This document shows positions 14,463-21,399 of a stretch of DNA of 64,000 nt, piece by piece. Each line of letters opens with the position of its first letter. The first letter of the stretch is position 1. Source of the DNA: Thermocrinis ruber. GTDB lineage: Bacteria > Aquificota > Aquificia > Aquificales > Aquificaceae. A model generated the notes under the pieces. The model made no database searches and was not told where the DNA came from. It was given only the letters and a program-made list of their open reading frames with translations. The DNA lies in assembly GCF_000512735.1 (NCBI RefSeq), contig NZ_CP007028.1, positions 1,178,001 through 1,242,000 of the forward strand, written 5' to 3'. The position numbers and the translations under genes were made by a program.

Positions 14463-14582
14463 ACAGCGTTGTCAGGCTTTGCGGAGCGGATAGCTAAATA
14501 ATTCGGACAAGGCGATGTTGATTTAAGACATGGTGAGAGCTCAATAGGTGAATTATTTTTATCTTCTGAGGAGGGAATAGCC

Positions 14583-15989
14583 ATGATAGAAAAACTTTTA
14601 GAAAAACAAAACCTAAGCAGGAGGGAAAAGCTCGCCTTCTTTCGCAGTATGCTAAAGCGGGAAATGGATGTTATGAACGAGTATTGTGCCATGAATCTTC
14701 CACCCGAATACCGGGCAGAACTCTGCCACATTGAAAACATAAAAAAGCTCAACATAGCCCGGCTACTTCAAGTAATAGAGTATTACGATCCAGATTTTAT
14801 CAAAATCCTTGCCACTACAGACCCAAGGGTCAGAACCTTCATAGGATACTACTTTGACTTTCTCAAGGCTAACCCATACCAATACGAAGCCCTGGAGCAC
14901 AAAAACCTCTTTGGCAACTGGGACTTTATAAAGTATAAACTCCGAATACTTTTCCCAAAGCTGACTCTAAACGAAATAGAAAGCTTTAAGTTCAAAAGAA
15001 AAGAGTTCATAGACTATGTGATGAAAAAGACGGGAGAGAGCAGGGAATCTATAGAGATGAAGCTCAACAACGCCACATGGTATGAATCGGTGCCTTACTT
15101 GGAGCTTGAAGAGGAAATGTCCAAACTGTGGCATCCTGAACCCATTATGACCGACGAGGAGTGGGCATTCATAAAAAGGCACATAAGGGGCAGGAAAAAC
15201 ATATTCATAAAGGAAAACGGTACAGAAAAGTTCGTCTATGTGGATGTGGATATTCCTGATGAGGAATTGGACAAATACAGAAAGGACAGAGAGGGACTAA
15301 AGAGGTTGCTTATGGAAAGGCTAAACATTGATGAGAGCGGTGCGGAGCAAATTCTGCGCAAAGCAGGCTGGGAATCGGAAACTTATCACATAATGCCACC
15401 CGTGCATACGGATGTGGTCCTTGACTACGGAAGCACGCAGGCGGTAGAAGAAAAGGTGGAGGAAGAAAGGCAGGAGTTGTATTATGGGAACGTGGCAAAC
15501 TTCATAAGGCATATTGGAGGTCTTGAGCTTGAAACACTAAACTACTACGACCTCATATACGAAAAGGTGGAGGAGGATGTTCAGTTGATCCTTGATAGGA
15601 TAATTCTAACCCACAGGAGGGTGTTAGGAAAGCTTTTTGGCATCTTCTACACCGCAGACCCTCTCATGGCGGAGGCTATACTGACTATAGATCCCCAAAG
15701 GTTGGAATTTCTTAAGGAACTAACCGCCAAGATAACAGTAAAAGACAAAAAATTTGACCTTTATAGCAACACTACCGCTTGGAAAATCGTCAAGCAGAGG
15801 ATAACATCAAGGCTTCCAGAGGTCTCTGAGGAAGAGATAGAAAACTTTAAGGGCAAAAGGGCAGAGTTTATAAAGTATGCCTCTCAAAAGACAGGAAAGC
15901 GTGAAGAAACCGTGGATATGATCTTGGAGGAATGCGGTTGGACAAAAATGGAAGAGATTCCACCTTTCCTCAGACAGATAGGACCTTGA
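14583..15989 (+). CDS. Protein with three CsbD-like repeats and a duplicated helical domain
   Basis: I do not recognise this 468-residue protein as a named family. Residues 112-166 and 400-453 share the pattern W-x-IK-x-RL-x(3)-P-x-L/V-x(3)-EI-x-F-KxKRxEFI-x-KTG-x-E-x-L-x-W, and 192-263 is a more diverged third copy ending KAGW. This pattern resembles CsbD stress proteins (GKR and terminal W). Residues 26-95 and 315-383 are also similar to each other (E-x-N-Y ... DP ... DPR/Q), giving helical-CsbD, CsbD, helical-CsbD. There is no signal peptide or membrane segment, so it is cytoplasmic. A GAGGAGGG site fixes ATG 14583. The 120 bases upstream hold no gene I can support. Confidence 0.6.
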   Translation: MIEKLLEKQNLSRREKLAFFRSMLKREMDVMNEYCAMNLPPEYRAELCHIENIKKLNIARLLQVIEYYDPDFIKILATTDPRVRTFIGYYFDFLKANPYQYEALEHKNLFGNWDFIKYKLRILFPKLTLNEIESFKFKRKEFIDYVMKKTGESRESIEMKLNNATWYESVPYLELEEEMSKLWHPEPIMTDEEWAFIKRHIRGRKNIFIKENGTEKFVYVDVDIPDEELDKYRKDREGLKRLLMERLNIDESGAEQILRKAGWESETYHIMPPVHTDVVLDYGSTQAVEEKVEEERQELYYGNVANFIRHIGGLELETLNYYDLIYEKVEEDVQLILDRIILTHRRVLGKLFGIFYTADPLMAEAILTIDPQRLEFLKELTAKITVKDKKFDLYSNTTAWKIVKQRITSRLPEVSEEEIENFKGKRAEFIKYASQKTGKREETVDMILEECGWTKMEEIPPFLRQIGP

Positions 15990-16031
15990 TACTGTTCTGA
16001 AAATACGAACTGAGGAAAAGTTTTTGAGAAG

Positions 16032-16040
16032 TGATATAAT
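16032..16040 (+). promoter_or_regulatory. Extended -10 promoter of the structured RNA
   Basis: TGATATAAT is a near-ideal extended -10 (TG-A-TATAAT) with a T-rich discriminator. No convincing -35 is present. Transcription should begin near 16047, between two convergent protein genes, where a promoter serves only a non-coding RNA. Confidence 0.6.
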
Positions 16041-16046
16041 TTTTCC

Positions 16047-16249
16047 TGTGCAAAGCTTTCAGAGCTTGCTGGATGCCCGTTGTGGGACCAGTGGAAGGAA
16101 TCTTGCCCGGCAGGTTCTGAAGGTAGCCCTCATTTTCCCTGTTCTTGAGAGGAAGACATTCCTCTCCTCCCGCAAGGGAGCGTGGGACAAAGTAGGGAAA
16201 GGGTTAGTTCCCTTAGAGGCTGGGGGGACGGTCCCGATAAGGGATTTTT
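16047..16249 (+). ncRNA. ssrS: Independently transcribed structured RNA, candidate 6S RNA
   Basis: A transcript of about 200 bases runs from the extended -10 to a terminator, with no credible open frame. It can form a long hairpin: ATGCCC/GGGAT and GGGACC/GGTCCC (16083-16089 region with 16229-16235) enclose an internal loop, TTTCCCT pairs AGGGAAA further in, and two perfect local hairpins occur (GAGAGGAA/TTCCTCTC, and CTCCC-GCAA-GGGAG). The 5' stretch GATGCCCGTTGTGGGACCAG is similar in layout to the E. coli 6S closing stem and central bubble (GATGTTCGCAAGCGGGCCAG). Size, fold and own promoter fit 6S RNA; the identity is inferred by eye. SRP and RNase P signatures are missing. Confidence 0.48.
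16209..16249 (+). terminator. Rho-independent terminator of the structured RNA
   Basis: The perfect arms TCCCTTA (16209-16215) and TAAGGGA (16238-16244) are followed by five T residues; GGGAC/GTCCC can pair inside the loop. It ends one base into the convergent metF stop codon region. Confidence 0.6.
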
Positions 16250-17141
16250 AGAACAGCCTCGATAGGACCTTAGGCGGTATAAGGTGCTTTATGGCTTGGT
16301 AGATAAGCAGAGTTGCCCTTGATTTGTTGAGGGTGTAAAAGTGAAGCCCGGGAACACCGTTGGCTATTAGGTCTTCGCACTGTTTTATAGCAAACTCTAC
16401 ACCCCTTTTTGTGGTCTCCTCCGGATCCTCCGCGTAGGGCTCCAAGATATTCACCAAGCTCTGTGGTATGGTTGCCCCGCACATGCTGGCAAACTTCTTG
16501 ATCTGGGAAAAATTGGTTATGGGCATAATGCCCGGTATTATGGGTATGTTTATGCCTTCCTTATGACACCTTTCCACAAACCTGTAATAGTATGAGTTAT
16601 CAAAGAACATCTGAGTTATGGAAAAGTCAGCACCTGCCAAGACCTTTTCTTTGAAAAACCTTATTTCCCACTCCATGTTGGGAGACTCGGGATGCTTTTC
16701 TGGATAGCTGGCAACACCCACTGAAAAAAAGTTGTCAAAATTTTCCCTTATAAACTTTACCAATTCCACCGCATACTTGCAAGCACCTTTTGGAGCCTGG
16801 AAATCTCCCTTTGGCATATCACCCCTGAGGGCTAATATGTTTTCAATGCCTATGTTTTTGTAGTCTTGAAGGATCTCCAAAAGTTCTTCCTTTGAGTGGG
16901 CTATGCAAGTTAGATGTGCCATAACGGTGAGCTTTGTTTCTGTGTGTATTCTATAAACTATCCTTCTTGTTCTGTCCCGAGTACTCCCACCTGCTCCATA
17001 GGTAACCGACACAAAAGTAGGCTTGAGTGCTTCAAGCTCCTTTATGGTTTCAAAGAGTTCTTGCTCTCCCTCGGGAGATTTTGGAGGAAAAAACTCAAAG
17101 GATATGCTGAACTCACTCTTGAGAAGCTCTCCGATCTTCAA
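16248..17141 (-). CDS. metF: 5,10-methylenetetrahydrofolate reductase
   Basis: The 297-residue protein has the MTHFR barrel signatures [15 protein letters not shown] at the N-terminus, [16 protein letters not shown] (about residues 43-58) and [11 protein letters not shown] (about 102-112), with QMFFDN later. It reduces methylene-THF with an FAD cofactor to methyl-THF, the methyl donor for MetE, which lies at 53.6 kb. It overlaps the upstream hypothetical gene by 29 bases and is the last gene of a helicase-GYD-hypothetical-metF run. Confidence 0.93.
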
Positions 17142-17768: not shown

Positions 17769-18872
17769 TTATAACCCTAAGCTTTTCTGATTTTCCTTAA
17801 GTTTTTTTATCCTCCACAGTGCCCGGCTGTCTTCGGGCGTTGCAAAGCTGTAAGCTTTCCCGTAGTTCCCAATTCTTCCAGTTCTACCTATGCGGTGGAT
17901 ATATACCTCTGGGTCTTCGGGTATATGGTAGTTGATCACCACACCTACACCCTTTATATCTAATCCTCTTGATGCCACATCGGTAGCCACCACAATTCTT
18001 ACCTTCCCATCCTTAAAGAGCCTAAGGGCATTTTCCCTCTGCCTTTGGGTCATATCTCCATGCAAGGCAACCACTTTAAAGTTCTTGGCTTTTAGCTTTT
18101 CTGCCAATTCCTTTGCATCCTTGCGAGTTTTAACAAAGATGATCACCTTCTCCAAAAGATGTTCCCTTAGAAGCTTTTCCAACTCTGAAAGTTTTTGCGC
18201 AGGAGAGCTAAGCCTTATTAACCTTTCCTCTATCTTTGGCTTTAGTTCAGCGTTTATCACTCTCACCAACTTGTAGTCTTCCCTTAAGTATTTTCTCGCA
18301 AGCTCTTCCACCTGCCTTGGTATGGTGGCGGAGAACATAAAACTTTGCCTTTGGGTAGGGATATGGGAAATTATCTCCTCCACATCCTCAATAAAGCCCA
18401 TATCAAGCATAAGGTCCGCCTCGTCAAGGACAAAGTAAGAAACATTGCTAAGGTCCAAAGCGGAACGGTTTATAAGGTCCTTGATCCTGCCGGGCGTTCC
18501 CACCACTATGTTGTGGGTGTATTTTGCTAAAAACTCAATGTTGCCCGCCACGGGTGTTCCACCGTAAAAGACAGATACCCTCAGACCCTTATACTTGGCA
18601 AGCTCTTGCAGTTGTTCCTTTACCTGAATGGCAAGCTCCCGGGTGGGAGTAAGTATGAGCGCCTTTAAACCCTCTTCCTTTTTTACCTTTTCTATTATGG
18701 GTATGCCAAAGGCTGCGGTCTTGCCTGTGCCCGTTGCCGCCTGTCCCAAAATATCGTAGCCCTTGAGTGCTAAGGGTATTGCTTCCTTTTGTATAGGTGT
18801 GGGTTTCTCAAACCCCAAATCTTTAAGCGCCCTCCTCACTGGTTCGCTCAGTTGCGAAAAATCAAATTCCAT
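17769..18872 (-). CDS. DEAD-box RNA helicase
   Basis: The protein of 367 residues has a Q motif (FEKPTPIQKEAIP), Walker A AATGTGKTAAF, the DEAD box VLDEADLML, SAT (motif III) and HRIGRTGR (motif VI), so both RecA-like domains are complete. It ends soon after motif VI and lacks the long C-terminal RNA-binding extension of CsdA or DbpA, so it is a minimal helicase. ATG 18872 is preferred over an upstream GTG (18884) because the GGAGG site overlaps the latter. It is likely to act in ribosome assembly or RNA decay. Confidence 0.9.
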   Translation of the reverse strand: MEFDFSQLSEPVRRALKDLGFEKPTPIQKEAIPLALKGYDILGQAATGTGKTAAFGIPIIEKVKKEEGLKALILTPTRELAIQVKEQLQELAKYKGLRVSVFYGGTPVAGNIEFLAKYTHNIVVGTPGRIKDLINRSALDLSNVSYFVLDEADLMLDMGFIEDVEEIISHIPTQRQSFMFSATIPRQVEELARKYLREDYKLVRVINAELKPKIEERLIRLSSPAQKLSELEKLLREHLLEKVIIFVKTRKDAKELAEKLKAKNFKVVALHGDMTQRQRENALRLFKDGKVRIVVATDVASRGLDIKGVGVVINYHIPEDPEVYIHRIGRTGRIGNYGKAYSFATPEDSRALWRIKKLKENQKSLGL

Positions 18873-18911
18873 AAAAACCTCCACCCTTAATTATAAGCCT
18901 AAATAGGAAGA

Positions 18912-18942
18912 TAAAGCAATAAGGTTTTGAGTTATAATTTTT
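18912..18942 (+). repeat. 31-bp direct repeat, left copy, containing a promoter
   Basis: These 31 bases match 20052-20082 with one mismatch (position 18923 G versus A). The repeat contains TTTTGAGTTATAATTTTT, with TATAAT as a -10 element. The left copy lies upstream of the broken mscS gene and the right copy upstream of ccsA, so the two copies bracket the decayed region. Confidence 0.75.
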
Positions 18943-18970
18943 GCACGAGTGTTTTACAGGAGGGGGTTGT

Positions 18971-19875
18971 ATGGTGAGGCAGGAACTTTTATTGAGCGGT
19001 TTGATATTCTTGGGATCGCTGTTAGTTTTGCTGTTAGTTAGGAGTCTGTTTTTTGGCTTTATAAAAAGATCTTCCCAAGACTATGCGGTAATGCTCCTTC
19101 GGGTACTCCGTCTGCCCTCTTTGTTTTGGGCAATTGTTATTAGCCTTTACCTTACGGTAGAGCTCAACCCTGGGCAACTTTCGGGGTACTCCTCGGTAGT
19201 AGAAAAGGTTTTAATATCCCTATTGATCCTTTCTATAACCTCGTTTTTTCTAATCTACTTCCTGAACTTTTACAGGTTTATATTTCAAAGGCAAACTTAA
19301 AATTTCCCAGAACTGGTATTGTCTTTGTGATAATTAAACTGTTCGTCTTTATTTTGGGTGTTATAACCCTCCTGTCCTATTTTGGCATTCAGGTAGCCCA
19401 TTTTATAACTACCCTGGGCATTGCTGGACTTGCGGTCTCCCTTGCCCTTCAGGGCACGCTTTCTAACATCTTTTCCGGGCTTAACCTAATTGCCAGCAGA
19501 CAGATTGAAGTGGGAGATTTTATTAGGTTAGAAAACGGTGAAGAAGGTTATGTGGAAGACATAACATGGATGAACACAGTCATTAGGAGGAGGGACAACA
19601 ACCTTGTGGTGGTGCCAAACTCCCGTTTGGTTAACTCCATAGTAATAAACTACGGAAAACCAACGCCCTCAATGAACATTACAGTTTCCGTTGTGATCCC
19701 ATATTCTTCGGACCTTGAAAAAGCAGAGGTGCGGACCCAAGCTTTGAGCCCTCTGTGCGCTACAGTGCCTTTATAGAGCTTGGAATCACCTTAAACATCA
19801 CGCTCAGAGTTCTTAACCCAGACAGTCAGTTTTTTATTCGCCACGAGTTTATAAAAAGGAAGTGCTTAGAGCTTT
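18971..19875 (+). pseudogene. Broken MscS-type mechanosensitive channel gene
   Basis: The ATG at 18971 has AGGAGGGG upstream. The first frame gives a membrane region ending at a TAA near 19298; homology continues in another frame from about 19290 (RTGIVFVIIKLFVFILGV), through the pore helix and beta domain (GTLSNIFSGLNLIASRQIEVGDFI), to about 19735. There it shifts again to a third frame encoding DPSFEPSVRYSAFIELGITL, with about 20 residues of the usual sequence missing between. The C-terminal end runs into the antisense of an alcohol-dehydrogenase relic. Two frameshifts plus a deletion make a functional channel unlikely, unless part of this is sequencing error. Confidence 0.78.
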
Positions 19876-20050
19876 ACAAGTATCTGTGGGCTTCCTGGGC
19901 ATCCTTGAGGTCACAAACCTTGTCCACCACTGACTTTAAAAGCCCCCTCTCAAAGAGTTCGGTGATCTTAAAGAGGTCTGCCCTTGGTCCCATGTAAACA
20001 CCCAAAAGTTCAATTTCCCTAACAAAAACATACCTTATATCTATGTCCGC
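19874..20050 (-). pseudogene. C-terminal fragment of a zinc-type alcohol dehydrogenase
   Basis: Read on the minus strand from 20050 to the TAA at 19874-19876, the sequence encodes 58 residues in one frame: REIELLGVYMGPRADLFKIT followed by a VVDKVCDLKDAQEAHRYL end. This is the pattern of the last domain of medium-chain alcohol dehydrogenase/quinone reductases (G-x-Y-M-G ... VVD-x-V-x-L-x-x-A-x-EAHRYL). It lacks the start, the catalytic and Rossmann domains, and the final GKVVL strand. The next upstream codon is a stop, and the 31-bp promoter repeat begins directly there. It is a non-functional remnant in the gap between mscS and ccsA. Confidence 0.72.
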
Positions 20051-20051
20051 C

Positions 20052-20082
20052 TAAAGCAATAAAGTTTTGAGTTATAATTTTT
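20052..20082 (+). repeat. 31-bp direct repeat, right copy; promoter of ccsAB
   Basis: This copy is 31 bases with one mismatch to 18912-18942. TATAAT at 20073-20078 lies 31 bases before ATG 20110, with GGAGG between, so this is the probable ccsAB promoter. The left copy is in the same orientation in front of the mscS pseudogene. Confidence 0.7.
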
Positions 20083-20109: not shown

Positions 20110-21399
20110 ATGAACCTGTACGAATACGAAGCCTACGATAAGATCTTCAAAAAGTATGGCATACCTACTCCCAAGTATATATTTACAGACCATCTGAACG
20201 ACGAAGTGGTAGAGTTTATCAACCAACTGGGTGAGTGCATGGTAAAGTCTCAGGTGCTGGTGGGCAAAAGGGGTAAAGCTGGGGCGGTCAAGCTGTGCAA
20301 AACTCCCCAAGAAGGTGTGGAAACGGTGGAAGCTCTTCTGAAATACCCCGTGTATGGCGAAATGCCCGTTGGTGTTATAGTTTGCGAAAAGGCAAACATA
20401 CTTAAGGAACTTTACGCATCCATCACCTACTCCACAGAAGTGCGGGCGCCCGTTTTGACCCTTAGCTTAGAGGGCGGTATGGACATAGAGGAAGTGCCAC
20501 CGGAGAAGGTAAAGAGCTGGCCCATAGATCCTATCAAGGGGCTCTATCCCCACATGGTAAGGAACTATCTTTTGGGGCTGAACTTTCCTCAGGAGTTTAT
20601 GGGTGTTTTGAGGGAACTCTCCGAAGTTATAACCAACATGTGGAAGGCTTTTTGGGAGGTGGAAGCGAGGCTTTTGGAGATTAACCCCTTGGCTATATGC
20701 GATGTGGATGGTAAGCAAAAGGTATTAGCTTTGGATGCGGTGGTGATCATTGACGATGATGCGTCAGTGCCACCCGCCAAGATATATGGCCTGAGGACAG
20801 CCCTAAAGAGACCACCTACAGAAAGGGAAATAGAGGCCTCTTTAATAGACAGGGATGACCATAGAGGTAAGGCAGGTTCCTATGTGGAAATGGATGGCGA
20901 CATAGCCATGATGACCTTTGGAGGTGGTGGCTCCACCGTAACCATAGAGACCGCCTACGCAGTTGGTTTAAAGCCCGCTAACTTTACCGACATTGGTGGC
21001 AACCCACCGGCGGAGAAGATGTATAAGATCACCCGCATCATCCTCTCCAAGCCCGGTATAAGGGGTGTGCTGGTGTGCGGTGGAACTGCCAACAACACAC
21101 GAATAGACGTCACCCTTGGAGAAGGCGTAGCCAACGCCATAAGGGACCTCTACAAGGAGGGCAAGCTGGACCCCAACTGGATATGGGTGGTCCGCAGGAA
21201 CGGTCCGGAAGCGGAAAAGGGCTTGAGAATGCTCTATGAAGCCTTCAGAGAGTGCGGTGTAAAAGGGGAAATTTACGATTCCACACTGCCCTTAACGGAA
21301 GCACCAATAAGATTAAAGGAGCTTTTGGATAAGTGCCAAGGTTCCAAGAAGGAAGAGGGGACCTTAACAGAAGAGCAAGCGAAAGACTTAGGTATTTAA
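20110..21399 (+). CDS. ccsA: Citryl-CoA synthetase large subunit
   Basis: The 429-residue protein has an N-terminal ATP-grasp region and the conserved LEINPLAICD and FTDIGGNPPAEKMYKI blocks of the succinyl-CoA synthetase beta/ATP-citrate lyase group. Its length matches CcsA of Hydrogenobacter (about 46 kDa) rather than SucC, and it is followed 12 bases later by the small subunit. CcsAB makes citryl-CoA from citrate, CoA and ATP, which a separate citryl-CoA lyase then splits into acetyl-CoA and oxaloacetate: the citrate-cleavage half of the reductive TCA cycle. The lyase gene is not in this window. GGAGG precedes the ATG. Confidence 0.87.
   Translation: MNLYEYEAYDKIFKKYGIPTPKYIFTDHLNDEVVEFINQLGECMVKSQVLVGKRGKAGAVKLCKTPQEGVETVEALLKYPVYGEMPVGVIVCEKANILKELYASITYSTEVRAPVLTLSLEGGMDIEEVPPEKVKSWPIDPIKGLYPHMVRNYLLGLNFPQEFMGVLRELSEVITNMWKAFWEVEARLLEINPLAICDVDGKQKVLALDAVVIIDDDASVPPAKIYGLRTALKRPPTEREIEASLIDRDDHRGKAGSYVEMDGDIAMMTFGGGGSTVTIETAYAVGLKPANFTDIGGNPPAEKMYKITRIILSKPGIRGVLVCGGTANNTRIDVTLGEGVANAIRDLYKEGKLDPNWIWVVRRNGPEAEKGLRMLYEAFRECGVKGEIYDSTLPLTEAPIRLKELLDKCQGSKKEEGTLTEEQAKDLGI

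Follow-up and report, generated by a model that had tools for sequence, protein, structure and literature searches.

A decayed copy of mscS, probably a dispersed duplicate, lies between 31-bp direct repeats upstream of ccsA in Thermocrinis ruber

Results

The window (the whole 64,000-nucleotide stretch of the Thermocrinis ruber chromosome that we analyzed) contains an open reading frame at 20110-21399 on the plus strand, which we take to be ccsA, the large subunit of citryl-CoA synthetase; it matches the Pfam families ATP-grasp_2 and Citrate_bind. To its left, at 17769-18884 on the minus strand, is a divergent gene for a DEAD-box RNA helicase. Between these genes lie two copies of a 31-bp repeat, at 18912-18942 and at 20052-20082, both on the plus strand, and the right copy occupies the place of the putative native promoter core of ccsA. 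As a first-pass annotation had described, the copies agree at 30 of 31 bases (the sole mismatch is AAGG/AAAG), are in the same orientation, and each contain a TATAAT (18933-18938 and 20073-20078). Allowing up to 3 mismatches, the repeat has these two matches in the window, where shuffled sequences lead us to expect 0, and the same two in the entire 1,521,037-bp genome. The annotation had said that many more copies elsewhere, as in a general intergenic element, would speak against its reading; the repeat occurs just twice in the genome, and we rejected the idea of such an element.

The DNA at 18947-20052 (plus strand) matches another part of the same chromosome (G000:C1:1124566-1125781), with 95.6% identity over the aligned bases. 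The segment was originally about 1.2 kb and is now 1106 bp. This parent locus, which we found by searching the region against its own genome, is about 72 kb from the copy in the window and on the same strand; we found no further copies of the insert in this genome. The parent segment comprises the very end of a rhomboid protease gene, an mscS that is intact (335 amino acids; L004 6592-7599), and part of a convergent gene for a zinc-type alcohol dehydrogenase (adh). The insert accordingly holds the end of the rhomboid gene, the whole length of mscS as a pseudogene (18971-19858, plus strand), and an internal fragment of adh that is cut at both ends (19859-20051, minus strand). The ends of the copy fall at arbitrary points within the donor genes and are cut exactly at the repeats.

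When the insert is compared with its intact parent, single bases are missing near 18971 and near 19243 (the latter is a frameshift), as are 46 bp following 19726 and 62 bp following 19858, so mscS is indeed broken, as had been proposed from the sequence of the window. The adh fragment is also real. However, it is antisense, so what had been read as its last codon, abutting the right repeat, is instead its upstream truncation point, at 20051/20052.

In three sister genomes (G001, G004, and G006), the flanks on the helicase side and on the ccsA side are joined through a single 31-bp copy, without the insert. The identity of these flanks to the window is 92-97%, and their matches overlap by 31-32 bp. 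Therefore, the repeat arose as a target-site duplication, about 31 bp long, in a single event. The mscS-adh parent is found at a separate locus of its own in G001, G004, G005, and G006. In G001, a single contig carries both loci, spaced and oriented as in T. ruber, so no inversion was involved. A scan of genome contigs found the insert in no named close relative, and we saw no relative with both repeat copies around intact genes.

The first-pass annotation had suggested that recombination or a duplication had deleted DNA from this locus, and it had proposed looking in sister genomes for a single repeat copy and for an intact mscS-adh order. The single copy is there in three sisters; the intact gene order is there too, but at another locus. 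So the duplication stands and the deletion of resident DNA does not: the bracketed DNA was copied in from 72 kb away, and we found no sign at the locus of deleted resident DNA. We are fairly sure that the region is a dispersed duplication, that is, a decayed extra copy that was inserted within its own chromosome.

At the left junction, the bases GCAC (18943-18946, plus strand) lie between the repeat and the insert. The G is the next base of the target, as seen in the sisters, and the CAC is either filler or mutated bases of the donor or target; the target reads TTTTTGTCATAAC here, and the donor has CTCGTTA before GAGTG. At the right junction, base 20052 (a T) is common to the insert and the right repeat. 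Template switching would predict microhomology at both junctions; here it amounts to 1 bp on the right and 0-1 bp on the left, with about 3 bp of possible filler on the left. The insert has no terminal inverted repeats (GAGTGTTTTACAGG at one end and CTCCGCC at the other do not match in this way), and we found no transposase or recombinase within it. In Pfam searches, the genome had no match to Ku or to reverse transcriptase (RVT_1).

Several candidate processes were rejected on these grounds: insertion of a transposon or IS element (no terminal inverted repeats and no transposase in the insert), a retrocopy (no RVT_1 match in the genome), nonhomologous end joining with Ku (no Ku in the genome), and an inversion-linked duplication (the copies are on the same strand and the loci are collinear with G001).

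Differences between the insert and its parent are unevenly distributed. From left to right, the segments differ at 21/138, 8/192, 1/465, 10/118, and 9/193 positions, so that about 450 bp in the core of mscS is nearly identical to the parent while the flanking segments differ by 4-15%. In comparisons of the parent copies of different species, the differences are spread throughout. The longest run of agreeing variable sites is 84 of 217, which was reached in 0 of 20000 shuffles. The near-identical tract (19277-19726, plus strand) is bounded by the 46-bp deletion on one side and ends near the 1-bp frameshift on the other. It is best read as the result of gene conversion between the two mscS copies, in either direction.

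The TATAAT of the right repeat copy is 37 bp ahead of the ATG of ccsA. Most of the 26 loci from the family have a TATAAT at 37-43 bp before the start of ccsA, including the sisters without the insertion. Because insert-free genomes and most of the family have this motif at the same distance, the insertion did not give the ccsA genes their promoter, contrary to what the annotation had supposed. Rather, the putative promoter appears to be native and conserved in the family. A simple scan found no acceptable -35 box, so the conservation supports this promoter but does not prove it. The duplication left the putative core promoter beside ccsA and a second copy ahead of the broken mscS. Because the duplicated piece includes this core, ccsA presumably kept its expression signals. 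In G005 (L044 1-90), the similarity upstream of ccsA ends inside the 31-bp segment (20052-20082 in the window), just upstream of the TATAAT. This may be another rearrangement breakpoint at the same place; the contig starts there, so it may also be the edge of the assembly.

In G001, the helicase gene beside ccsA is interrupted by a 1.64-kb element, with the loss of about 136 bp (L038 3108-4748; G001:C15:190107-191747). The ends of this element are GAGACTGTTCTAAAAAT and ATTTTTAGAACAGCCT, and it contains an open frame, more than 500 codons long, whose product looks like a transposon protein of the TnpB type. A remnant of its right end (58 bp at 97% identity and 39 bp at 87%) is at 16109-16259 in the window, at one border of a 1.8-kb region (about 14463-16246) that is missing from G001 and that contains an open reading frame of 468 amino acids without a Pfam match. 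Insertions of 0.5-1.9 kb between T. ruber and G001 are found at G000:C1:1051340-1053248, 1058377-1058875, and 1090756-1091913, with target overlaps of at most 5 bp. Across the roughly 160 kb that can be aligned between T. ruber and contig C15 of G001, we found no other indel with a target duplication of over 15 bp and no other long self-duplicates.

Discussion

How might this insertion have arisen? The 1.2-kb stretch with the end of the rhomboid gene, mscS, and the antisense part of adh was most likely copied to a site 72 kb away, in the short region between the helicase gene and ccsA, and some 31 bp of the putative native promoter of ccsA were duplicated on both sides. A replication or repair fork could have moved from the ccsA promoter to the mscS locus, copied it, and then come back to a point about 31 bp behind the one it had left. 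Alternatively, a fragment captured at a staggered break that was then filled in would give the same product. We infer the route from the scar, and one scar cannot separate the two; we slightly prefer template switching by a fork to capture at a break, and we hold that preference tentatively, at a little short of an even chance. After the insertion, the unneeded copy of mscS decayed by small deletions, but about 450 bp in the middle of the pseudogene probably stayed identical through ectopic gene conversion between it and the intact copy.

The reading that we started from, in which DNA between two repeats was lost through recombination or ccsA was supplied with a promoter in that way, was suggested by the two promoter-like copies with broken genes between them. 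But the sisters have one copy with nothing between the flanks and the TATAAT at an equal distance, and the parent of the broken genes survives intact at another locus of this genome. We give this reading almost no credence and rejected it on the basis of the sister genomes. It also seems very improbable that a small mobile element was integrated by a site-specific recombinase, with the 31 bp as its att repeats. Att sites are typically direct repeats of about this length, but this insert has no recombinase, its content is plain chromosomal DNA with arbitrary ends, and the 31 bp is absent from the parent locus and from everywhere else in the genome; nor did we see a circular or integrated relative that carries the 31 bp along with an integrase.

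The age and source of the insert are a different matter from the duplication and insertion, and the conclusion about those is untouched by it. In its outer segments, the insert differs from its own parent about as much as the parent copies of different species differ from each other, and trees of these segments group the insert with the T. ruber copy, without support. Because the outer parts are about equally far from the parent and from the sisters and the trees are unresolved, the insert may be older than expected, may derive from the DNA of a relative, or may be fast evolving. For instance, the fragment could have arrived by transformation from a related Thermocrinis strain and then have been partly converted to the resident mscS. 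The genome encodes a ComEC-type competence protein, the 5' part of the insert differs from its own parent at 21/138 positions versus 16/138 from G001, and there are 11 sites where the T. ruber parent alone differs. On the other hand, the core of the insert resembles the T. ruber copy, the trees of the outer parts are weakly supported, and neutral decay together with a fast T. ruber branch could yield the same pattern, so we consider transformation unlikely, if worth keeping in mind. Or the insertion could be ancestral to this group and have been lost from the sisters when the 31-bp repeats recombined with each other, an event that would restore the empty site exactly. Direct repeats do permit such precise loss, and the divergence of the outer insert is close to that of the species split. 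Yet all three of the sister sites that we could resolve are in the single-copy state and several separate losses could be needed, which makes this distinctly improbable.

We judge that this duplication is a further example of an insertion with long target duplication, with ordinary chromosomal DNA as its cargo. Passages in PMC1643837 and PMC3031569 describe this class as having been named from comparisons of Helicobacter pylori genomes (Nobusato et al. 2000). By those accounts, the flanking target repeat is longer than transposases usually make (it is 31 bp here), and relatives have a single copy of the target without the insert, as in G001, G004, and G006. The H. pylori insertions are often linked to incoming restriction-modification genes, whereas here the DNA is resident, or nearly so, and the host is a hyperthermophile. 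The insert has no restriction-modification genes, just mscS and part of adh; this association is not strictly defining for the class.

The locus also resembles templated insertion, or microhomology-mediated template switching (similar to MMBIR), in that a distant donor was copied with little homology at the junctions. A short flanking duplication is expected if the fork returns upstream, although for a single locus this is a resemblance only. Another kind of event known from work on H. pylori, DNA duplication associated with inversion, similarly duplicates a chromosomal segment at a distance. It requires an inversion and inverted copies, while here the orientation is the same and the order is conserved.

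What we see here is the well-preserved trace of a type of accident that is already known, not a new system. With the donor locus, the insert-free site, and the two junctions all in view, together with the decay and the mosaic of identity, it shows cleanly how a bacterium that lacks Ku-type end joining can acquire a dispersed duplicate with a long target duplication. It suggests that an insertion ahead of a central carbon-fixation operon can be harmless, because the core promoter is duplicated along with the insert, and that part of a pseudogene can stay young through ectopic gene conversion. More speculatively, in hyperthermophiles that lack Ku, copied chromosomal DNA might enter repeatedly where DNA breaks or forks stall at the melted -10 regions of strongly transcribed genes, with the copies then exchanging sequence with their parent genes. 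We doubt this strongly, but if it were true, variation would be fed back into the parent genes.
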